The position numbers were made by a program, and so were the translations under genes. DNA of 64,000 nt from Castor canadensis (taxonomy: Eukaryota > Chordata > Mammalia > Rodentia > Castoridae), in the NCBI RefSeq assembly GCF_047511655.1, contig NC_133390.1, positions 157,167,583 to 157,231,582 of the forward strand, written 5' to 3'. This document shows, piece by piece, positions 4,701 to 61,355 of this stretch. Positions within the stretch are counted from its first letter, which is position 1, and each line of letters begins with the position of its first letter. Under the pieces are notes generated by a model. It was not told the DNA's origin. It saw only the letters and a program-made list of their open reading frames with translations, and did not search any database.

Positions 4701-7700
4701 GAAGACGAACCTGCCTAGCAAGTGAGGGGCTCCAGCTGGGGAGGAAGGCTGGTCCACACTGCATCTCCCCGTGTCCCTCTTCCTGAGCAAGAGCTTCTGT
4801 AACCATGTCCCTTCATGTCTTCCGCCTGACTTGCTGCCACTGGTGCACCTATTCACCCACCTCTGCTGCTCGTGTCTAGCATGCTGCCCAAGGTCATCAG
4901 AAAATTCCTGGATAGCACTCTGCATAAGGTCCTTCCAGGCCTGGTGAGTGGTCGGAGCCTCCACCCTTCTGGCTGAGGTTGCTTTGGGCAGGGTGGGAAG
5001 TGTTTTTTCTCTTGGGTGCTGACCTTGATTGGTCGTTGGTGGCTGAGGAAGGCTCTGAGGCTGTAGCTGGATCGGGGGGAGGGAGTGTGGTGATCATATC
5101 ATGATGTCTCCCATGAGCGTGGGCAGAGGAAACACAGCCTGTGTGTTCCAGCTTACCAAAGCTGGTCATCTGCTTGGATGACCAGCCCCTGGGGCATGGT
5201 CAGATCTGGGTCCTATTCCAGACTCTGCCATTGACTTTCTGTGTGACTTGGATCCTCAGTTTCCTCACCAGCCCCTGTCCCATTAGGGCTCTTGGGACTG
5301 CCTGTGAAATACCACTGAGGTGTGAAGAGTAAGACCCTTCATGTGGGACCCTCTCATCCTGTGCCTCTGCTTGTAGATGTGTCCAGCCATTGATGCAGTC
5401 TTGGTATATGTGAACAAGAAGTGGGTCAACATGAATGGTGAGTGCCACCCTGGCCATACCCCACCCCTACATGGGGACATCAGGACGGCTAGACTTTGAT
5501 GCCCCACACTCCATTCAAGGGGCTGCTTTCAGCCCCTTGGAGACTAGGGGTCATGGCATCTCCCACTGTCCAGATGGGAACCCCAGGCCTGGAGAGTGGA
5601 GCACTCTTCACTCAGTGCTCCATCCAGCAGCTACTCTGCCTGTGTCCCCAAGTCTTGTGTCCTGCCCAGTGATCCTGATAGTGGTAACGCCAGCCCTTCT
5701 GTTGAAGGCATTATTTTGGGGTCCACAGGGTTCCCTAGTATGGGAGAAAGGAAGTCCCAGTTGCTAGGATGAAAAAACTGGTTACATCCCCAGTAGGGTG
5801 GCCTGGGGAGTCACTTTACTCCTCTGAGCTCTGGTTTGCTCCTCTGGAATACAACTGATAAACCAGATCCTGCAGGCACTGAGATCCAGGTTGTGTGGGC
5901 CCTTAGTGTGTGGGCTGTGTGGGCTGGCAGAGCCAGGCCAGGTCCCATTGCCTCCTTCCTACAGCTGAAGTTACTGAAGCCCAGAGACACTGAGCAACTT
6001 AACTCAGGTCACAGAGAGGGCCAGGCTCAGGCACCAGTTGGCAGTGCTGGATTTTCTGGCTGCTCCTGGGGACGGTACCTCTCTGAGTGGAACCTCCTCT
6101 ACACAGATGCCATGCCTGTGGGCCAGATGGGCACCATCAAATATGCCCTGACAGCCTCACCGGCCACCACAGCCAGCCATATCCAAGTGGACTTCAGTGT
6201 AAGTAGTGAGGGCCTCCAGGGCAATGGGGCTTAGGCACAGAGTCCTGGTGGGGTGGTCTGCTCCCATTGAGCAGGTGGCTGGACTGGGGATGGGGAGTGG
6301 TGAGGGTCCCTTGGGCTCTGGCAGGCCAAGCCTACCATGAGGGTTTCCCCTGATCCTGGGCCCTCTCTCTCTCTCTCTCTCTCTCTGCTCTAACACTGTG
6401 CCCATGTCCCCAGCTGATTTCTCCCAGACCCATTTGCTTCTCCTGAAGAGTGGCTCACACAGCTGGACCCCACCATTGTACAGATGGGCACATTGAGACT
6501 CAGGGAGGAGGAGTTTGGTGAGGGTCCCATAGTGAGTTGGCAGCAGCATTGGGCCCTCACTCAGGTCTCCAGATTCCCAGGTGACAAGGGGAGATGCATC
6601 TTGCAGGAAAGGGATGCAAAGTCCCATGAAGTCACCTCCCTAGAAAGTGTCCCTCCAGTGGGGCTCTTCCCAGCCCATGGTGTTGGCCTCTGACCTCTCA
6701 CTCCTGAGAATAAAGCAGGAATCATGGATAAACGAGGGTTCCAACCAGTCAGAGTCAGACTGATGAGGCGACCAAAGCTCTCCCAGGGGAAACTGGGAGG
6801 GGTCTAGTGACTGACTCTCTTATCCCTTCAGGCCCCAGTCTACCTACCTGTGCACTAGGAAGCTGCCATGGCCTGCTCTGGCTCTAACTTTCACTGGCTT
6901 GATTTGAGCTCCATTAGTCTGGAGGGCTAGAGTTCTACCCTGACCACAGTCCCTAATGGCAGTGTCTCCCTTCCATAGCCTGTGGTGCAGCCTCAGAAGG
7001 GCAAAGCCATCCAGCTAATGGATGAAGGGGAAGCCCCCGAGTTTCCTGAAGGCTTGGCCGAAGGCTCATCACAGCTGCTGCTGTCAGCCACCTTCCTCAC
7101 AGCAGAGCTGGCCCTTCTACAGAAGTTCTTGAATGCAAACATCCAGGACAAGATGGTGAGTTGTCCAGTGCTCCACCCCTGTCTGCCTCTGCCCTGGGAT
7201 TGGCAGTCCTGCCTAGTTTGTGTATCTGAGAATAATTCTGGGGCTGTGGGCAGCACTAGGACTGGAAGATGCTAGAGTTGTTCTGGGTTCTACCATCAGT
7301 TTTTCCCCACTACTCACCACCTCTCCATCCATGTGACCGCCACCTACCCATCCATATGTCCAGCTGTCCATGTGGCTGACCTTTTGGTCATCAGTCTGCA
7401 TCTCTCATGCCTTGGCGAGCCACTGTCTTCTCTTATTCCGTCATCACCCACCCACCCACCAGGTATTCATGTCCTAGCTCTCTCTGCACCTCAAATCCAT
7501 CTAGCCTTCCGTGTCATCTACACAGCACCCAGAGCTTTGAACAGGTGGATTTGTGCACCTGCTGTTTATCAGCGAAACAGCTCTATCCACATACAACTTT
7601 CCACCATCCGTCTTTCTGCTCACCCACTCATTCAGTCATCCATCCATCCAGCTACCCACCCATATATCTTCCCATCCTTCATTGACCCACCAATCCATCC

Positions 7701-10700
7701 TTCCATCCATCCATGTGCCTTCCCATCCACGCTCTCACCCACCAATCCAGTCGTCTATTTCCCATCTACTTCCCACCTCACCATCTTCCCACCCACCCAG
7801 ACTGCTGCTCTTCATTCCTTTCATTCACCCACCCATCCACTCATCCATCCATCCTCCATCCCCACACTTTCCCCTTCTCCCACTCACCCACCTATCCATC
7901 CATCCTCCCAACCATTCACTTATTCACTTATCTATTTCCCCATCTACAGTCCCACCCCCTCCCATCCATCCCCCCTGTCCATCCTCCCATCCACCTTCCT
8001 TCTCTTCCACCCAACATTTTCTCAGCATTTGACCTTATGCTGAGAGCCACAGGCACTGGAATTGTGTAATCCATGGTCTGGGCCATGCAGAAGCTCCCTA
8101 TCTAGTTGAGCACAGAGTGGTAAATGAGTGAGGAAGGGAGGCTCTAAGGGTGCACCTATTGAGTCAGGGGATGGTTGTTAGGATGCACCAGGGACTTCAG
8201 TAATCCCAACCTTGACTTTGATTTTGTAGATTGGTGAGCTGCCTCCACAAACCACCGAGACCCTGGCCGGCTTCATCCCGAAAGTGAGCGCTCCAACTCC
8301 CTAAGATCACCGCATTCTGTCCTGCCCTATCAGCAATGGGGAGGGACTTGGGAGGTGGTTTTTCAATGCCACATGTCCCCTGTCCAATATGGAAGCATCT
8401 TGACTTCTCCATAAAGTACTCTTTGAGAACTAGCTCAGCCTTCATGCATTGTAGATTCTATGTCCAACAGAGAAATAGCTCAATTGTGTATTTTGCTCTG
8501 ATTATTTCCCGATAGACACATTCCAGCCTTTGTAAGCCATACTTCCTGTGTCCTCAGTAAAAAGCACCTTTTATGAAGGATCCTTGGTTCCAACTGAAGC
8601 CACCAGGCTAAGGACAACTTGTCAGTGGAGTGTCCTGGTTTCTGCAGGTAGCTGAGGCCTATCCCAAGTCAAAGCCCTTGGTGACTCAGATCAGGATAAA
8701 GAAACCCCCCAAGGTCACCATGGAGCCAGGCAGGAGCCTGCTGCACCTGCATGGCACCCTGGAGATGTTCGCTGTTTGGCGGCGGGGCAAGACTCCAGTG
8801 TCCCTCTTTCTCCTGGAGATTGTGAGTGGAGTCTTCCCCCCCACCCCCGTTCATTCCCAACCTCACGGATGTTTGAGGCTGGAAGGTGGACTTTAGTTGG
8901 TAACTAAGAAGTGGGCGGAAGGGTCCTTAGTTAATCTCCACTGTGTGCCACCTGCACCTGTGCATGGTTGACAGGATTAGCATGGTGAGGCTCAGTGGTT
9001 CAGTCCCTCCCTTCTCCCTCCTCCCTCCCCCAGCAGTCCTTTGCAATTACAAGGGCAGTGAAGGGCTTGCCAGCAGGGCAATGGGAGAACAGATGGACCC
9101 CAAATCCAGTTTGGGGATATCAGAAAGGACTTCATGGAGGAGGTGCTAGCTGAATTCTGTTTCAAATGCTGAACAGGTGTTGGCCAGAGGAGGGGTTGAG
9201 GTTGGGAGGTTGGGGATGCCCCAAGCAGAGGTTACAGCATGGGCAAAGGCCTGGAGAAATAGCACGATGTGTGCAGGAATCCACCATGGTGCCCGGTATT
9301 TTGGAAAGTGCTGTCCTGTTCAAGGAAAAGGGGACAAGGAGCCTAGGCCAGGAGGTTGGGAGGCTTCCAAGTTCAGTACCTGAGGGCAGGATGGGCAATG
9401 GTGGTGCTGACGGGAGAACACCCTGCCTTCCCTCTACTTCCTCCCCACCACCAGCATTTCAGTCTGAATATCCAGTACTCAGTGCACGAGAACAGACTGC
9501 AGATGGCCACATCTCTGGGCAGGTAGGAGCCTGCTGTCTCCTGCTGGCATCCCTGTAGATCTGTATGGGCATTTTCAGCCTCTTGGCTTCCTGTTCCAAG
9601 CTCTCACCCTGATCTTCCACAATGACCAACACTAATACCCTGCTCTGGCCATGATCCCAGCTCAACAACACTCAATGGATCCCTAGTCTTCTTAAATGTC
9701 AGCTTGAGACTCAAAGTCTTTCCCAAATTCTTCTACTTCTTCCATGAGGCTTTTTTACAGTGAGCCTGGTCAGGGGTCCGTGTACCCTTCCCATTCAGAG
9801 GCCTTTGCCCATGCTGCTTAATGCCACCTGAGAGTCAGGGCCAGGCTCCGATACCTCTCCTATGGATCTCTTTCTATGCGAGGCACTGGCACAACATTCC
9901 ATCTGGTATCCCACTCCATTCTTACACTCAAGGAGGGTACTGTTCACATCCTGGCTTTCCATTCACTTTTTGATTCTGCACTTGCCTTGGGAATCATATT
10001 ATGTCAGGATTCTTTCAATTGCAAGAGACAGAATTCCATCTTTAACTCCCTTAAGCCTGGAAGGGAATCTTTTGGCTCCTCTAACTGAAAACTCTAAGGA
10101 TTGGTAAGTTTTCAGGCATGGCCGGATCCAGGCACACAAAGAATCTGTATCTGTACTTCCCTTGCTTTGCTACCCACTTTGTTGAGTAAATCTGCAGGAA
10201 CCTCTCCCCACAGGGTGACAGTGAGCCCCAACAATAAGAGAAAGCCTCTGGTCCAAGAGTTCTAACAAAACTTGGATCTAGTTTGGGTCATATGACTGAC
10301 TCTAGCCAATCACCATGATGGAAAGAGGGTATGCTGTGTTGTCCAGGTCCAGAATGTATGCTCCCGGGCTTTGGTTCAGCCCTGCATGAATGGTTTGACC
10401 AAGAGTGGAAACAGAGGGTCAGTTGCTAAAATAGAGAATGGACAAGCAGAGCCCCCAGATAACCATCACGTGACCTGTCCTGGTGCAAGGCGTATTAGCG
10501 CATGAGAACAGGAGAGCCCAGGGGTGCAAGTGGTGGGAACGGAGTGGGTGATAATGACAGGTGGTCAGTGTCCCATCATAGGTGACATGCAAGCAGAGAC
10601 TTATGAGCACCTACAGCCTGTGGAGGATACCCGTGAATTGGGAGGGGGTGGGAGCTTGTAGATCCTCTTCCTCCAGGGCCAGGGCCAGTGGCTCTGAACA

Positions 10701-18235: not shown

Positions 18236-18326
18236 GGGGCTGGAAGTGTAGCTCAAGAGGTAGAGCACCAGCCTAGCAAGTGTGAAGTCCTGAGTTCAAG
18301 CCCCAGTACTGACAAAAAAAAAAAAA
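18236..18326 (+). repeat. ID-like tRNA-derived SINE, near full length
   Basis: A plus-strand copy with a tRNA-like A-box region ('tgtagctcaagaggtagagc'), a B-box region ('gagttcaagccccagtac') and a 13-base A-tail at 18314-18326. This monomer is the clearest indicator of a rodent genome in the window. Confidence 0.85.
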
Positions 18327-20609: not shown

Positions 20610-23600
20610 GTGAGCTGGAGGCAGGTGGTCTGGGAGGGCTCGGGCTGCCTGTACGGGCTGTTTAGACAGCGTATTCTCCCAGGACCCTGGGAGTGGAGGG
20701 CACAGCATGCTCGGAGAACTTAGTGGTGCCCAAGGCTTGGGGACAGGGGCAGGGTGGGGTGGAGGAGTCACAGAGAAGTTGCTAACTGGGTCTTGCCTCT
20801 GCCCCATGTTCCTGAGGTGTGGAAACTCTAGTTGGCATTTGGTGCTGCAGGACCCAGTGGCTCGTGGTGACAATCTCAAAACTGCAGTAGAGTGGTCATG
20901 AATAAGAAACACTTCCGAGAGGCCACCCCGGCCTGCTCCGATCCCAGAAAGCAGTCTCTTCCACCTTGTCCTCTCATCACACAGGCTGGGGTGCTATGGG
21001 AGGACCACCCCCTTCACAGCGAATAAGCCTCAGTGACTGTGGGCCCCTCCTGCTTTGGTTCTGCCCTCCTTTTAATACAGGGCAGTCCGGGATCGGGAGC
21101 CCAAGCCTGATTTGCTGTGCGACTTTGGGCAAGTTTGTATGTGTCCCTAGGCTTTCATTTACCCACCTCTAAATGAAGGAATTGCCAGGGAATTCACTCG
21201 ATTAACTCCAGACACTCACTGGGTACTTTCTGCATGCCAGGCAGGGTGGGTGGTCACCCTTGCTGTGCTAGGAGTAGGACACTGTCACAGTTCCCACCAC
21301 TTGAGTGATCTCTGGGTCAATTCCAGTAAAAATGGAGTTACTAAACTCAGAGGACAGGGGCAGCTGGCACAGTCCTGCAGATAAGGTAGAAATTTATTAT
21401 GTCTTCCTACTTCTCCCCTTCTCTGCAGCCATTCAGAACTCCCTGGTCGGGGGGCCTGTTCTGCAGAATGTGCTGGGCACGGTGACATCTGTGAACCAGG
21501 GCCTCTTGGGCTCAGGAGGGCTGCTTGGAGGAGGTGGCCTGCTGACCTACGGAGGAATTTTTGGTGTAGTGGAAGAGCTCTCTGGGTAAGTCCTCCAGGG
21601 CCTGTGCATGCCCCACAGGAAGGCTTGACTTGGTTTGCTTCAGGGAGCAGAGGGGAGAGGGACTCTAATTTGCTGGAAGGCAGTGGGGGCGTGTGGGGAG
21701 GGTGGTGGAAATAAGATTCTACTGCATGCTTGGCAGGACAAGAATGGCTGCATGCCACGGTCATCCAGGGTTCCTGTGCTGAGGTCAATTTTTGTTACTC
21801 CCTGTGTGATCTAGGTCAGGTTGCTTGGTGGTAATGAGTCTAAAGGTCAAAGACAGGCCCCGGAGAAGACTCAGGGCCAAGGCCAGGGCCGGCAGGAGGG
21901 TTGGGGCCGGGAGCAGAAGGGAGATGGTATCCATCTCCTAAAATGGCACGAATGCCTGAAACGGGGACTGATGGAGGCTGATGTGGCTCCACTCCATGTC
22001 AGTCTGGTAGATGTCATAATAAACCTGGAAAAACCAGAGCAGCCCTGTGACTTGCCTGGAGTCCCATAGTCAGTAGCTGCGCTGGTGTTTGAAGCAGCTG
22101 GTGCTGACTGGCTGCAATGTTAGCAGCTACTTGGTGCCAGGAAAGAATTAATCTGTCAAGCAGCTAAAATAAAGCCTGGCACACAGGAAGTGCTCCATAA
22201 ATGCTATTGCTATAATTATATTCAGTATCTCTCACCCTGTAGACCACCCCTGCTGGGTGAGTCTTGGGTCTGAGACAGGAAGCTGACATAAGAATCCCAC
22301 TATGTAGCAAAGCCTGATGTGACAATCTCACCAGCTCAGGCAGTGCAAGAGTTAATTGGGTGATCAGAAGCATTTGCCTATGGCTTTCAGTCAGGGAGGC
22401 TTCCTGGAGGAGAGGACATCCCAGCTGAAATCAGGAGAGCTGGGAGGGCTCAGCTAGCTGGAGGAGGATGCAGAGGGAAAGAGCCAAGAGAAGGGCGTTC
22501 TAGGCAGAGGAAAGAACCTGGGTAAAGACAGAGCACAGAGGATGAATTGTTCAGAGCCTTGTCTGAGAACTTTCTTGGGTTGCATTTGTGTGCAGGTGGG
22601 GGACAAAGTCAAGGTCAGAAACCAAACCAAACCAGGCTGAGGCAGTGGGATAGCCTCTGATTGTGATGCTGGAATTATATTTATTGAGCACACAAAGTAC
22701 TCGTGTCTGCACTGCATAGGCTCACTTTCTGGGCACTTGTACCACCCCACGTTACAGATGAGGACACTGAGGCTAAGAGAGGCAGAGTCCCTGGCTCCAG
22801 GGGTCTCAGATGGTTCTTCAGGCTGCAGGTGGGATAGGGGACTGCCCAGACTCCTACCCTGCCTGATCAGGGACATCCAGGCACTGGGCGTGTCTGGGAG
22901 TGATAGCTCACCTCCACTGCCACACCAGGCTGAAGATAGAGGAGCTCACACTGCCGAAGCTGTCACTCAAGCTGCTGCCAGGATTTGGGGTACAGCTGGG
23001 TCTGCACACCAAAGTGGGCCTGCATGGCTCTGGGTGAGTATGCCCTGGGAACCCCTACCCTAATTATGCCTTGAGTCCTAACAGGTTGCTCCCTATCCCC
23101 TGTTCCTTCTCACCCTACTTCCTTCCCAAGGGACTCCCACCCTGCTCTTCTCCCTGGATCCTACTCCATTACCCTGTTCCAGAGACCACTCCACTGACCC
23201 CCAGGAGTAGCATCCTCACTTTCCAGATCCCCTCTTCACTGCTGGGGCTAGCAGGAGGACAGGGGCACGCAGACGGCAGGGACGCAGAGTGTGAGAAGAT
23301 GGCAGGACACTGGACTAGGCCACTTGCTGCCTCTCCCAGGGCTCAGAGGGACCCGAGTAGATGTAGCTGGGCATGGGCAGGTGGGAGAGGCTGATCGCCT
23401 GGCCACACCCACTGTCCTGTCTCCCAGCCCCCTGGGGGGCCTCTTGCAGCTGGCAGCCGAGGTGAATGTGTCATCACGGGTGGCGCTGGGCATGAGCCCA
23501 CGGGGGACACCCATGCTGATCCTCAAACGCTGCACTATGCTCCTGGGCCACATCAGTCTGGTTTCGGGGTGAGTTGCCACTCCATTCTGTGTTCCACCCA

Positions 23601-40829: not shown

Positions 40830-41140
40830 CTGGCTGGAGGTATGGAAGGGTGACTAGATGAATGGGTTGGTAGTGGATGGTTGATGGGAAGATCTGTGGA
40901 TAGATGGATGGATGGATGAATGATTGGATGATGTGGGGGTGGATGGGAGGAAGCATGGATGGGAGGATGGATGGGTGGATGATATGTGACTGACTTGCTG
41001 GTTGTTTGGATGTTGGATAGATGATTGATGGGTGGGAAATGGATGGATGAAGGATGGATGGATGGATGGATGAATGGATGAATGGAGGGAATGTGTAGAT
41101 GAGCAGATGGTGGGTACATGGTTGGATGAATAGATAGGTA
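40830..41140. repeat. (GGAT)n-type tetranucleotide repeat
   Basis: Impure GGAT/GATG array in BPIFB4 intron 1. It is the reverse complement type of the CATC array in BPIFB6 intron 8. Confidence 0.85.
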
Positions 41141-41526: not shown

Positions 41527-41641
41527 ATGTGGACAGCATGGTGTGTGGCTGCTCTGCTCACGGCAGCTATGTGTGGCGTCCACACCCAAATCCAAAAGAC
41601 AAACACAGTCCTCAGGGTTACGAAAGATGTGCTGAGCAACG
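41527..41641 (+). CDS. BPIFB4: BPIFB4 coding exon 2 (first coding exon)
   Basis: Encodes the signal peptide and [11 protein letters not shown], 38 codons plus one base. The acceptor is CTCAACAG at 41511, 15 nt before the ATG; the donor is G|GTGAGT. Confidence 0.93.
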
Positions 41642-44600
41642 GTGAGTCCAGCCCCAAAGCGAGTGGTGGGTGGCATGGGGTGGGCTGAGGGCCCAAGGAC
41701 CTTCCCCACTAGATTCCATACCGTGTGTCTAGGTGACTTCTCCTCTTTGGCCTAGTTTCCCCTTTTTCTTTCAGCTGCCATTTCCTGGTACTTACTGTGT
41801 CAGGCATCATGCTGGGGGCTTTCCACTCGCTCTCATGAGGCAATAGAAAGCAGTGGTTATGAACTTTGGCCTTGGAGTCAGCCTTCCTGGGTTTCAAATC
41901 CTGATTGCATGACTTGACTTCTCTGAACTCAGTCTTCCCATCTGAAAAGTGGGTATAATTATCCATATCTCCAAGGACTGGCATACGGATTAAATGTAAT
42001 GACCCATGGAGACACACAGTTCCCAGTGCACAGAAGGTCCTCAAATGCGGGCACTGTCATTATTCCTGCCCCCAATCCTTAGGTCCCTACTTTGTCAGCT
42101 GGCGAATGAGGCCTGGCTCCCAGCCCCAATCCTTGCCTAGGGCACAAGGAGAATAAAAATGAGAGCATTTTATCCCACAGTGGTCTCCAAGCACTCACAG
42201 GCCTTAATGTCTCCATCCATCAAGTGGGGACAGTGATTCTGGCTTTGATGTTTCCTAGCGATTGCTAATGCATGAGGAAGCAGATTTTTTTTTCTTTTTT
42301 TAATGCTGCAGTGAGGACCACTTGGAAGGGAAAGTGATGGGAGGAAATCCACCAAAGTTTGGCTGAATGAGGTGGAAATTTAGATAAAGGGAAACCAGGC
42401 AAACCAGGATGGATAATGAGCTTATTAGATAGGGATGTGCACAGGCCTGGAGAGTCTTCTCCATCCGCCTCTGCCTTTACTGGGGGGAGAAGTGAGGCCT
42501 GGACAGCAGGGAAGGCCCAAGGTGGGGCTGGGAGGAGACCCTGACTGACTGCCATGCCTCTCCACAGCCATCTCCGGCACGCTGCAGCAGAGCGATGCTT
42601 TCCGCTCAGCCCTGAGGGAGGTGCCCATGGGTAAAGCCCGTGGTGACGGTGGCGGGCCCCTCCTGGGAGGGCTGCTTGGTGGCAGTGGAGGCGGAGGTGG
42701 TGGGGGAGGAGGGCTTTTGGGGGGCCTGCTTGGTGGTGGGAGTGGAGGGAGTGGTGGTGACCTGTTGGGTGGAGGCTTACTAGGAGGCAGTGGAAGCAGA
42801 GGTGGGGGGCTGCTGGGGGGGAGTGGGGGGCTTCTGGGTGGTGGTGGTAGCCATGGTGGGGGGCTGCTGGGGGGCGGTGGTAGCAGTGGTGGGGGGCTGC
42901 TGGGAGGAAGTGGGGGGCTTCTGGGTGGTGGTGGTAGCCATGGTGGGGGGCTGCTGGGTGGCGGTGGTAGCAGTGGTGGGGGGCTGCTGGGAGGAAGTGG
43001 GGGGCTTCTGGGTGGTGGTGGTAGCCATGGTGGGGGGCTGCTGGGGGGCGGTGGTAGCAGTGGTGGGGGGCTGCTGGGGGGAAGTGGGGGGCTTCTGGGT
43101 GGTGGTGGTAGCCATGGTGGGGGACTGCTGGGGGGCGGTGGTAGCAGTGGTGGGGGGCTGCTGGGGGGAAGTGGGGGGTTTCTGGGTGGTGGTGGTAGCC
43201 ATGGTGGGGGGCTGCTGGGGGGTGGTGGTAGCAGAGGTGGGGGGCTGCTGGGAGGAAGTGGGGGGCTGCTGGGAGGAAGTGGGGGGCTTCTGGGTGGTGG
43301 TGGTAGCCATGGTGGGGGGCTGCTGGGGGGCGGTGGTAGCAGTGGTGGGGGGCTGCTGGGAGGAAGTGGGGGGCTTCTGGGTGGTGGTCTTTTGGGCGGT
43401 GGCCGACACCATTACAACGACTACAGACGCGCTGAATTCCCCCGAGGTGTCGGTGGCGTTCCCTACAACGACTTCCATGTCCGAGAGCCTCCCCCAAAAT
43501 ATACCAATGGCAGACAGCTTGGCGGTAATTACAAATATGGTCACGTTGAGGCCAATGACAACACCGCCCAGCTGGGGGGCAAATACCGGTACGGTGAGAT
43601 CGTGGAGTCGGACGGGAGCACCAGGGACCTCCGGCGGGAGGACTACCGCTACGCGGAGGGCGCGTACGGCGGCCACCGGGGCCACGGGCGGTACCGGGCG
43701 GCCGCGGCCCGGCGGAGGCGAGAGCTGCGGCCCGGGGAGCTCCCGCCCGGCGTGGCCACCGGCGCACTGGGACCCGGCGGCTTGCTGGGCACCGGGGGCA
43801 TGCTGGCGGCCGACGGCATCCTGGCGGGCCAAGGCGGCCTGCTGGGTGGAGGTGGTCTTCTTGGCGACGGGGGACTTCTCGGAGGGGGAGGCGTCCTGGG
43901 CGTGCTCGGCGAGGGCGGCATCCTCAGCACCGTGCAAGGCATCACGGGGTGAGCAGGGGCCAGGCCCTCCCTCCCAGACCCTCCCTCCCAAGGCCGGGTG
44001 CACAGGGGCGACCACCCCCTGAGGTTTTCAGAGAGCCCCGTGTTAACGTGGTTTGGGCTCTTGGTCTGAAAAAGAACTCAGTCTGAGACCCAGTTCTGCC
44101 TTTTATGTTTGTGTGTGACCTTGGGCCATTCCTTTCATCTCTCTGGGTCTCAGTTTCCCCATCTGTAGAATGGGCAGAGTAATACAGGGTAAGTGGAAAA
44201 AGCGCAAGGATTTAAAATTACAACACATATGTAGCATATCAGATGATTTTACATATTGTTATATGATAATGTAATATAATTATATCATAATTATAATTTC
44301 AACCATGCCTAGGCTCCTCTTCATAGCCATTTAATTCAACAACTTAGGCAGAGCTCCTATTACGTGACAGTGTGTTGGCTCTGGGGACAAACTCAATGGC
44401 TAGCTCAGAAAGGACACATCCCTGAGCCCATGAGCTTGAGCTGGTGGGTTAAGTGGATAAAGAAGCCAGGGAATAGTGGACTGATCACATGGTGCGGAGA
44501 AGTTCCCGGCCAGTGGGAGGTGCAAAATGAGGGATTTGCTTGAGGGACTTGCTTATACAGAGATCAGACAGCGTCCTGGAGGATGTCCTTGCTGACTCTG

Positions 44601-47600
44601 AAAAATGTGTGGGAGAGACAGCTGAGGGCCAGAGACAAGCAGAGTCATTTTGACAGGGAGAAAAAGACCAGAAGAGCCGCAAAGAGTGGAGTCAAGGGAT
44701 GGAAGGGGTGCAGAGAAGGGGTGCGAGGGAGGCTCTCCAGGCAAGTGAGTAGCAGTGGGCCGCCTTCTCACCGACCTCATCCCACAGGCTGCGAATCGTG
44801 GAGCTGACATTGCCTCGGGTGTCCGTGCGGCTTCTGCCTGGTGTGGGTGTTTACCTGAGCCTGTACACCCGGGTGGCCATCAATGGGAAGAGGTGTGTGG
44901 AGGGGTCCCTGTCACTCTGTGCCCAATGGGGGAGCTTGGTCAAGTGGCCTCCCTCTCCTCTCTACACTGGCCTGCGTAGCTGTAATGTGGGGACCAGAAA
45001 ATCCCATGTCCTAACTCGAAGTCAGCCTGTGGTCTCCATCAACAGGGCAGGCAGCCGGGTTAAGCTCTGGATGGTTGGAGTCCAGGGCACAGCTTGGGTT
45101 CCATTTCTGTTTTATAAGCCTCATGACCTTGGATCAATCTCTTCACGTCACTGAGCCTTAGTGGCTTCACCTGAACAGGGATACTAAGACCACCCATTCT
45201 TCCAGGTGGCCATGGCCACAGACAGATTCAGCCTCCCAAATGATACCTGCCATGCAGGAGATGCTTATTAGAGGATATCAGAGCGTGGACTCTGCATTGT
45301 TTTGTTCCCAAGGGATAAGGTCATGTATACAAAGCTAAGTGACTGGATGGTTACCTTGGAAACCAGAGTTTACACTGACCCCTGTTCCCAGACTTTGATG
45401 CTCTCATGGTCTGAGTAGGAGAGAGATTTATGCGTGGACACCTTGAGGGATCCAAGATGGCTTCAGATTTGGGACCCCTGCAGATGAGCGAGGGGTTTAA
45501 TAGATGACAGAGAGAGCCAGGGCTCAAGCCTGAGGTCCAGGTGCCAGTTAGGCCTGTGCAAGGGTGAGCTGCCTGGTGGCTGATCTATGGCTCACTGTCT
45601 CCCTGGCCTCTTGGTTTCCTCCAGTCTCATTGGCTTCCTGGACATCTCGGTGGAGGTTAACATCACAGCCAAGGTCCGGCTGACCATGGACCGCACAGGT
45701 TATCCTCGGCTAGTCATCGAGCGCTGTGACACCCTTCTGGGAGGCATCAAAGTCAAGCTGCTGCGGGGGTGAGCACCGCTGGGCCTTGGGAGGTGCTGAA
45801 GGGATCTGTCCCTGTCAAACAAAATTGTACCACTCCCCTGCCCCATGGCCCTGGGGCAGCAGAGCAGTGACACTGTGGGGACAGTGAGGACTCATGCTGA
45901 GCCATCCCAACTCCCTTTCTGGCTCTGGTCTGGCACTTGCTTGTTGGGAATTCAAGGGCTGTGCCATTGAGCCCAGGATGTGGGCTTCAGCTAGCCTGAG
46001 GAGGGGGTCATGACACACCACATTAACTTTGAAAAGACCTAGATCATGTGCTCAGGAGAACACCTGGGTTCAAAAATCAGCTCCGCTATTCCTTGCTGAG
46101 TGACTTTGGCCAACATATGTACACATGCACACACACAGGCACAGGCACACCCTCCACCCCCCACATGCATAGGCATGCACACACACATGCACATGCACAG
46201 GCATGCGCGCACGCACGCACATATGCGCACACCCCCACATGCACATGCACACCTGGGCACAGGCATGTACACACATGCACACAAATGCACAGGCATGCAC
46301 ACACACACATGCACAGGCATGCACACACACGTACACACATGGGCACACACCCCCACAAATGCACACACACACATGCACAGCACAGGCACAGGTACACACA
46401 CATATGCACACACACATACACAGGCACGGACACACACGCACACCACACACACATTCACACATGGGCACACACACATGCACAGGCATGCACCCACACCCGC
46501 ATGTACACATGGGCACACACACATGCACAGGCATGCACACACACATGCACACACGCACACACACCCACATGCACAGGCATGCACACACACATGCACACCC
46601 CCCAAATGCACAGGCATGCACACCCCCCACATGCACACCTGGGGACACACGCACACACACATGCACAGACATGTACACACATGGGTACACACACCCACAC
46701 ATGCGCACACACATGCACACATCCATACATGCACATGCACAGGCACACACACATATGCACACATACGCACAGGCATGCACCCACACCCACATACACACAT
46801 GGGCACACACACATGCACAGGCATGCACACCCCCCACGCACCCCCCCACACACACGGGCACACACATGGTACATACACATGCACATGTGTTCTCAACCAT
46901 CCAAAGAGGACTAGAACCTGGATCAGCCCCCTTAGGACAAACCCACTTTAAAAGGGGACTGGCATGCACAGTAGGCTTTGGGGACTTACTCTAACAGGAC
47001 TTTGCGTTGTCAACCTGGCATGGCAGTAGACAGTCAGCTGCCACCTGGGAGGAGGGAACCAGGCAGTGTCCAGTGGGGCACCTGGGGGCATTTTGAAGGG
47101 GCAAGTTCACCAGGGATGCTTTTGTGTTAGGGTTGTCTTGCTTCCCTCTGCTCCTTACTGCAGTGCCCTGAATACAAATTCTTGGATTACAAGTCTGTCT
47201 GTCTGTCCATCTGTGTGTCTTGTCTATGAGTCATCAACCCATCATCCTCCTTAGTCACTGGCTAGGATGGTTAGTTAGGAGCCTGCTGGGGCACTAGAAC
47301 TTGCTCCAGGTCACTTTTCAGGACCTCAGTTTCCTTGTCTGTAAAATGGATCACACATATCCTGATGTTTTTAGCACCATTATCCTTTAAGTGTGGACCA
47401 CAAGAGCACATTTTACCCACCACATTTCTTCCTCCATCCCTTCCACAAATATTTGCTTAGCCCCTGGAATGTTCTAGATACAGTGTGTTGTGCTTGGATA
47501 AAGTAATGTATTCCTCTGCCCTCTGGGAAGATTACACAGGCTGCAGGGCATGGATTTTGCAGCTGAGAATCAGGAACACCCCAGTTCATGCCCGGCATGC

Positions 47601-60212: not shown

Positions 60213-61030
60213 GTAAGGGAAGGTGGAGCCCATTATGCCTTCTCTCTCTGCCCTTTGCTGTCACCTTTGGCCACTGCATAAAGTCAGGCCAACGACTGGG
60301 AAGAGGAGAAGAGGAGGGACCCAAGGCCTCTCCCTTCAACATAGAGGCTGAGGGAACAAGGAACAAGGCTGTTACAAATCCTTAAAGGAAACTCATACTC
60401 ATGATCCTAGTTAGTCCTAACCACCATGACACTGCACCCATCTTTCAGCAGGGAAAACTGAGGCTCAGAGCAGTGACGTGTGTGCCCAAAGTAGAAGTGT
60501 GATGTAGTTCATTGGGAAAATGTTCACTGAGCACCTACTGTGTACTGGACAGTGTGCAAGGGCTGGGACCCAGCAGTGAGCCAGGACAACCCTGGCCCTG
60601 ACAAAGCTCCCCCAGCCTGGTGGGGAACCAGGACTTCAAGTAAATATTCCTGAAGTAATTAACCAATTAAAATTATGGCAGGTGCCTTGAAGTTCAGATG
60701 CAGGCGCTTGTTTCTACGATGAAAACCACACGTGCTCAGCATTTGAAATGTGGAACATATGCAAAAGATGAAACTAACACCTGTATCTTCTCCTAGACAT
60801 GCACGCACCCCAGAATCATCCCTCAGAACACTTTGCTGTTTGTCATTCAAGTCTTTCTGGAGTTTTGGCTTTAAATGTGGCTTTGATCAGAGTCAGGAGA
60901 GCATTGAGGCTAAAGAACGGGGGCTTGGAGCCCAACAGCCCACATCTAAATCTTGCCTCTACCAGTTTGCAACTGGGAGAGCCTGGGCAAACTACTTTAC
61001 TTTTCTCCTCTATAAAAGGAGGCTATTCAA

Positions 61031-61355
61031 GACAGGGTGTGGTGGCTCATGCCTACAATCTGACCTACTTGGGAGGTGGAGATAAGGAGGGTTGTCGGTT
61101 AAGACCAGCCTGGGTATAAAGTTCTCCAGATCCCATCTCAGTCAATAAAAGCTGGGCATGGTAGTGCATGCCTGTCATCCCAGCTACTCGGGAAGCATAA
61201 ATATGGGAGGACTGTGGTCCAGGCCTGCCCAGGCATCAGTGTGGGGAGAAATACTTAAAGCAAACAGGGCTGGAAGCATGGGTCAAATGGTAGAGCACCT
61301 GCCTAGCAAGTGCAAGGTCCTGAGTTCAAACTCCAGTACCACCAGGAAAAAGAGG
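61031..61355 (+). repeat. Trimeric SINE: two B1/7SL-like monomers plus ID-like unit
   Basis: The first 7SL-like monomer starts at 'gggtgtggtggctcatgcct', the second near 61151 ('gctgggcatggtagtgcatg'), and the ID-like unit near 61269 ('gctggaagcatgggtcaaat'), ending in 'ccagtaccaccagg' and an A-rich tail. Architecture is the same as at 71-387, in the opposite orientation. Confidence 0.8.

Follow-up and report, generated by a model that had tools for sequence, protein, structure and literature searches.

The 64,000-nucleotide stretch of Castor canadensis DNA analysed here (the window) carries coding exons 1–15 of BPIFB4 on its forward strand. The gene, which appears in the literature as BPIFB4, LPLUNC4 or RY2G5 (PMC3253384; PMC1839098, both in part), served as our compared system. 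We rebuilt it using GT-AG borders and an open reading frame, with coding exons 1–6 placed by eye and coding exons 7–15 found by a search that took the sizes of the chicken exons as its starting point and gave preference to strong splice sites. Between the second and third exons lies a Gly/Leu-encoding tract that can be read either as an intron or as coding sequence. The features of this part of the gene are as follows.

41527–41641, + strand: coding part of the BPIFB4 signal-peptide exon, read from the sequence
42568–42630, + strand: 63-bp exon (length measured), the size reported for LPLUNC4 in all species (PMC3253384, in part)
42631–43446, + strand: candidate exitron (intron or coding insertion) with Gly/Leu repeats; 816 bp, phase 1/phase 1, stop-free in the BPIFB4 frame
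42631–42636, + strand: weak 5' splice site, TGG/GTAAAG, score 3.91 (13 other introns 5.70–12.47)
42666–42820, + strand: diverged 5' repeat units with an excess of third-codon-position changes; 155 of the 816 bp, mostly outside the array
42786–43273, + strand: homogeneous array of 5.6 tandem copies of an 87-bp (29-codon) unit, 96% matches
43429–43446, + strand: 3' splice site GCGCTGAATTCCCCCGAG, very weak at a score of -0.56, against 5.36–12.98 in the 13 other introns
43447–43948, + strand: 502-bp exon with a Tyr/Arg-rich part and a GGLLGG part of its own, the latter used as a coding control

The rebuilt coding exons measure 115, 63, 502, 105, 144, 64, 61, 92, 201, 54, 171, 68, 43, 64 and 77 bp. 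Through coding exon 15 the frame comprises 608 codons with the tract spliced out and 880 with it retained, the retained form being free of stops. A candidate last exon (encoding DLLVLSA, then a stop) is found at the equivalent of window position 65013, about 1 kb past the window end, and its inclusion gives proteins of 615 aa (spliced) and 887 aa (retained), in agreement with the lengths of about 615 and about 887 aa put forward in the sequence-only reading that preceded this work. Both BPI domains were found by Pfam (PF01273, E 8.4e-29; PF02886, E 2.8e-28) with a query in which the repeat array had been shortened. A retrocopy recording the spliced mRNA was considered and rejected: among the best candidates scored, the downstream exon's sole match in the genome is itself.

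The tract begins with GTAAAG, ends with CCCCCGAG and is 816 bp, or 3 x 272 bases, long. The BPIFB4 frame runs through it without a stop, the two other forward frames containing one and 16, and G accounts for 458 of the 816 bases; the earlier description of the tract as an 816-bp G-rich GT...AG stretch of 272 stop-free codons is thus confirmed. Counted together with the border codon it encodes 273 residues, among them 159 Gly, 55 Leu and 30 Ser. Its GC content (0.694) is the highest of the 14 introns scored, the 13 others ranging from 0.485 to 0.584, and its 52 G runs amount to about 6.3 per 100 bp, compared with 1.1–2.7 in the others. It also holds seven non-overlapping G-quadruplex motifs. 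Length divisible by three is shared with five of the 13 other introns. A search of the source genome gave at least six matches to the tract, all of them inside the tract and the adjoining exon, and no relatives were confirmed among 280 pattern matches in GTDB genomes and 27 in viral contigs.

The openness of the tract exceeds what its composition gives. None of 2000 dinucleotide shuffles was open in the BPIFB4 frame (mean 7.4 stops), and each of the 13 other introns has at least two stops in each forward frame. Openness alone is nonetheless weak evidence, because repeats yield long open frames elsewhere in the window. Two antisense frames are open across the tract, one of 552 codons (42268–43923) and one of 328 codons (42428–43411), the latter open over the repeats with two stops close to the 3' end of the tract; a second forward frame, open for 412 codons (42784–44019), overlaps it as well. 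A (CA)n-type tract at 46100–46950, in a BPIFB4 intron, serves as a warning control: several of its frames are open on both strands by repetition alone, and open frames of 273–306 codons were found there.

Codon-level comparison of the repeats is more informative about coding use. In aligning the diverged units at 42666–42820 with the array consensus we ignored codon boundaries, and the comparison is one between repeat units of a single genome and not between orthologues. Mismatches fall 9, 6 and 29 times at codon positions 1, 2 and 3, so that the third position accounts for 29 of 44, a share of 0.66. This excess was matched in none of 1000 neutral simulations that used base-specific rates and a spectrum drawn from the data (mean simulated share 0.38, sd 0.06). 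Across five gap settings the third-position counts were 27/41, 29/44, 17/27, 32/52 and 11/18, with p between 1e-5 and 0.014; one of the settings gives gaps of 3 and 6 bases, but gaps of 1 and 7 bases occur in others. A cruder count of unique site-and-base changes among 13 distinct core variants places only 11 of 20 at third positions.

Scoring the differing codons for synonymy gives 23 of 32 in the BPIFB4 frame, compared with 2/32 and 0/31 in the other forward frames and 2/32, 0/32 and 17/31 in the antisense frames. The 552-codon antisense frame scores 0/32 and is therefore not coding-like, whilst the frame with 17/31 shares its wobble position with the gene frame. We prefer the forward frame to the latter because it runs on into known coding sequence at both ends and preserves Leu through CTN/TTR changes: the 27 Leu-Leu pairs of the tract use seven codon pairs, TTA CTA and CTT TTG among them. 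Given equal treatment, the GGLLGG segment of the accepted 502-bp coding exon has 10 of 12 differing codons synonymous. We conclude from these comparisons within one sequence that the tract has, by all appearances, been under selection as protein in the BPIFB4 frame. The large synonymous divergence among the units suggests that it is old, in which case other mammals would be expected to have it too, with an open, Gly/Leu-rich intron following the 63-bp exon in human. Among the five array copies at 42822–43256, five of six distinct recent changes are at third positions, and these six are synonymous four times in the gene frame and five times in the antisense wobble frame, numbers too small to demonstrate that selection still acts.

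Both splice sites of the tract are poor. Scores were calculated with a consensus frequency matrix for the 14 introns that lie wholly inside the window, and the donor and acceptor of the tract are each the lowest of the 14, a comparison biased by the fact that nine other exons came from a search that both required and rewarded good sites. Measured against the window as a whole, 15% of 3607 GTs score at least as high as the tract donor and 41% of 4980 AGs at least as high as the acceptor. The acceptor at 43446 has a G at -3 and a short C run only, and 15 GTs within the tract outscore the proposed donor (5.26–7.82). Such a poor acceptor, together with so many better internal GTs, means that splicing at the proposed sites may not occur or may be imprecise. 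A stronger acceptor at 43427 (score 2.52), 20 bases upstream, was rejected since by our reading joining there shifts the frame. We also considered a tandem duplication across the acceptor, which was not significant, 556 of 5000 shuffles being equally good.

The upstream border of the tract, by comparison, looks ancestral. The exon at 42568–42630 is exactly 63 bp long, its start having been fixed before the comparison with published exon sizes, and a 63-bp LPLUNC4 exon has been reported 'in all species', chicken included (PMC3253384, in part). This match makes the donor at 42630/42631 look old; the start of the tract then coincides with the reported end of an exon in orthologues, and hence with the start of an intron. 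In Table 3 of the same source the 63-bp exon stands in column 2 and the chicken exons are given as >112, 63, 100, 105, 144, 61, 61, 92, 213, 54, 171, 68, 43, 64 and 77 bp (PMC3253384, in part). As Table 1 lists neither a sequenced EST nor a peptide record for chicken LPLUNC4 (PMC3253384, in part), the published exon structure rests largely on gene prediction. The exons of 63, 105, 144, 61, 92, 54, 171, 68, 43, 64 and 77 bp have the same size here, agreement that for exons 7–15 is partly built in because chicken sizes guided the search. The two genes differ where chicken has exons of 100, 61 and 213 bp and the present gene has 502, 64 and 201 bp, and in the 816-bp open tract found here. The third exon is therefore 402 bp, or 134 codons, longer than its chicken counterpart (502 against 100 bp), and it may be that coding sequence previously grew into the intron from its 3' side and that the tract represents a further such step.

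The human BPIFB4 reference protein, which we take to be about 614 aa long, apparently lacks the tract. Set against four published residues, our working version of the human sequence fits at 229, does not fit at 488 and 494, and has the other allele at 281; agreement is thus incomplete, and we treat absence of the tract from the human reference protein as a lead only. The residue that fits, Ile229, is published in PMC9737551 (in part).

Exitrons are marked by weak splice sites, high GC content, a length of 3n, absence of stops and synonymous change (PMC4494720; PMC4484396, both in part), and about half of those known are divisible by three in length (PMC4484396, in part). The tract has all of these marks, its synonymous excess being one between units of one genome, and shares with exitrons a stop-free GT-AG region and a probably disordered product (Marquez et al. 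2015, PMC4484396; PMC4494720, both in part). Nearly all Arabidopsis exitrons align to coding sequence of plant orthologues and up to 3% to introns, the latter having lost coding capacity in those orthologues or possibly being ancestral introns that gained it (PMC4484396, in part). In this the BPIFB4 tract differs: the Arabidopsis exitrons are mostly coding in orthologues (PMC4484396, in part), whereas the tract starts at a conserved exon border and is exitron-like as judged from its own letters. The sequence-only reading had called it exitron-like, a possible intron that is also open as coding sequence, and had suggested that both isoforms may be made. The hallmarks (3n length, open frame, GC content, weak sites, synonymous excess) and, on the intron side, the 63-bp exon favour that view, but the very poor acceptor speaks against the spliced half of it.

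The reading that fits best, to which we assign a probability of about one half, treats the tract as exitron-like coding sequence. Tandem repeats encoding Gly and Leu would have expanded at an ancestral BPIFB4 intron position, and selection on the protein, to which the codon-level constraint observed between units points, would have kept these repeats in frame whilst the GT and AG of the intron persisted in weakened form. Many transcripts would then retain the tract, and in the secreted protein of 887 aa that they yield the signal peptide would be separated from the BPI barrels by a long linker of Gly, Leu and Ser that is probably disordered; some transcripts would splice the tract out to give a 615-aa form, the presumed counterpart of the human reference protein. 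We prefer the exitron reading because it alone accounts both for an old border with a surviving GT-AG pair and for the codon constraint.

With an acceptor this poor, coding use of the tract may simply be constitutive in the source species: the ancestral intron would be permanently retained in this lineage, its splice sites vestigial, so that only the 887-aa protein is made, from a 1381-bp internal exon. This is the main rival, and we consider it possible if rather unlikely. It draws on an acceptor that scores -0.56 where the other 13 introns score at least 5.36 (its C run is short and position -3 is a G), on the 15 stronger GTs within the tract and on a codon constraint like that of the accepted exon; tandem repeats are, moreover, enriched in long internal exons (PMC12457776, in part). 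It sits less well with a GT and an AG that are still present, in matching phases, at a published 63-bp exon border, and with a donor that beats about 85% of the window's 3607 GTs.

An intron that is always spliced is less likely, and we hold it improbable that the tract is an ordinary constitutive intron with a G-rich minisatellite whose open frame and codon pattern arose by chance or as a relic of repeat copying from the adjacent coding GGLLGG segment. Other repeats in the window do produce open frames, and the human reference protein apparently does not contain the tract; the length of our working version agrees with published Ile229 though not with all four residues. That the 63-bp exon border has been reported for every species, chicken among them, points the same way (PMC3253384, in part), as does the high density of GGG, an intronic splicing enhancer (PMC1831480, in part). 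Because GGG density is lower in human introns that are often retained than in those that rarely are (PMC1831480, in part), the 52 G runs of the tract are a point against easy retention under the exitron reading too. Against an ordinary intron stand the third-position excess, seen in none of 1000 neutral simulations, the absence of an open frame in 2000 shuffles, and splice sites that are the weakest among the 14 introns scored. Selection might instead have acted on the RNA, through G runs, G-quadruplexes or hnRNP H/F sites, a reading for which the 52 G runs and seven non-overlapping G-quadruplex motifs speak. G-run selection leaves unexplained why Leu is kept in 27 pairs despite CTN/TTR variation, and we regard the RNA reading as very improbable.

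If retained, as the exitron reading envisages, the tract product might act as a flexible, self-associating or membrane-seeking linker before the lipid-binding barrels. A single-sequence AlphaFold2 prediction for the retained N-terminal part (42570–43946, 459 aa) gave no fold and a mean pLDDT of 35.8, a low value that is compatible with disorder without being proof of it. BPIFA1 has a GGLLGG-type Gly/Leu-rich segment ahead of its BPI domain, and a BPIFB3-like neighbour gene region in the window has a short Gly/Leu stretch of its own (21515–21560, + strand), so that such segments recur in the gene family. Like the tract, these segments of BPIFA1 and the BPIFB3 region precede the BPI domain, but they have few repeats compared with the tract's 27 Leu-Leu pairs. 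Gly/Leu-rich antimicrobial peptides such as leptoglycin resemble the tract in composition only, which is a lead and not a claim of homology.

Human olfactory mucus contains BPIFB4 (PMC6249231, in part), and a human BPIFB4 haplotype has been linked to long life. Should the intron prove to be coding elsewhere among mammals, longevity work would have used a reference protein that lacks a domain. We put forward tentatively, with the odds somewhat against it, the wider proposal that BPIFB4 has an exitron derived from an ancestral intron at a position shared with birds, where a repeat tract gained coding capacity and is conserved and translated in mammals including human, regulated splicing switching the secreted protein from a carrier of 615 aa to an 887-aa form that bears a Gly/Leu-rich domain, or back. 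If true, an annotated human intron would hide a Gly/Leu domain. If coding, the tract would also be a candidate case of an ancestral intron gaining coding capacity, a route mentioned by the exitron authors (PMC4484396, in part). Among the matches listed from open-licence full text, we found no paper on BPIFB4 that describes a coding tract of this kind, a VNTR or a retained intron.

Several other repeats were noted in the window. A (TGGA)n array at 40830–41140 lies about 400 bp 5' of the BPIFB4 start codon. At 61030–61350 (+ strand) there is a composite SINE, a 7SL/B1-like part followed by an ID-like tRNA-derived part, which we take to represent B1-like plus ID-like families, a combination that points to a rodent, perhaps one of the beaver group. 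An Rfam tRNA match at 18242–18314 (+ strand; 30.6 bits, cut-off 29) has an A-rich tail; ARAGORN reported no tRNA gene at this position, and the match is probably a tRNA-derived SINE. Finally, a degenerate, C-rich (CCAT)n tract, with C reaching 51%, extends from 7600 to 8050.
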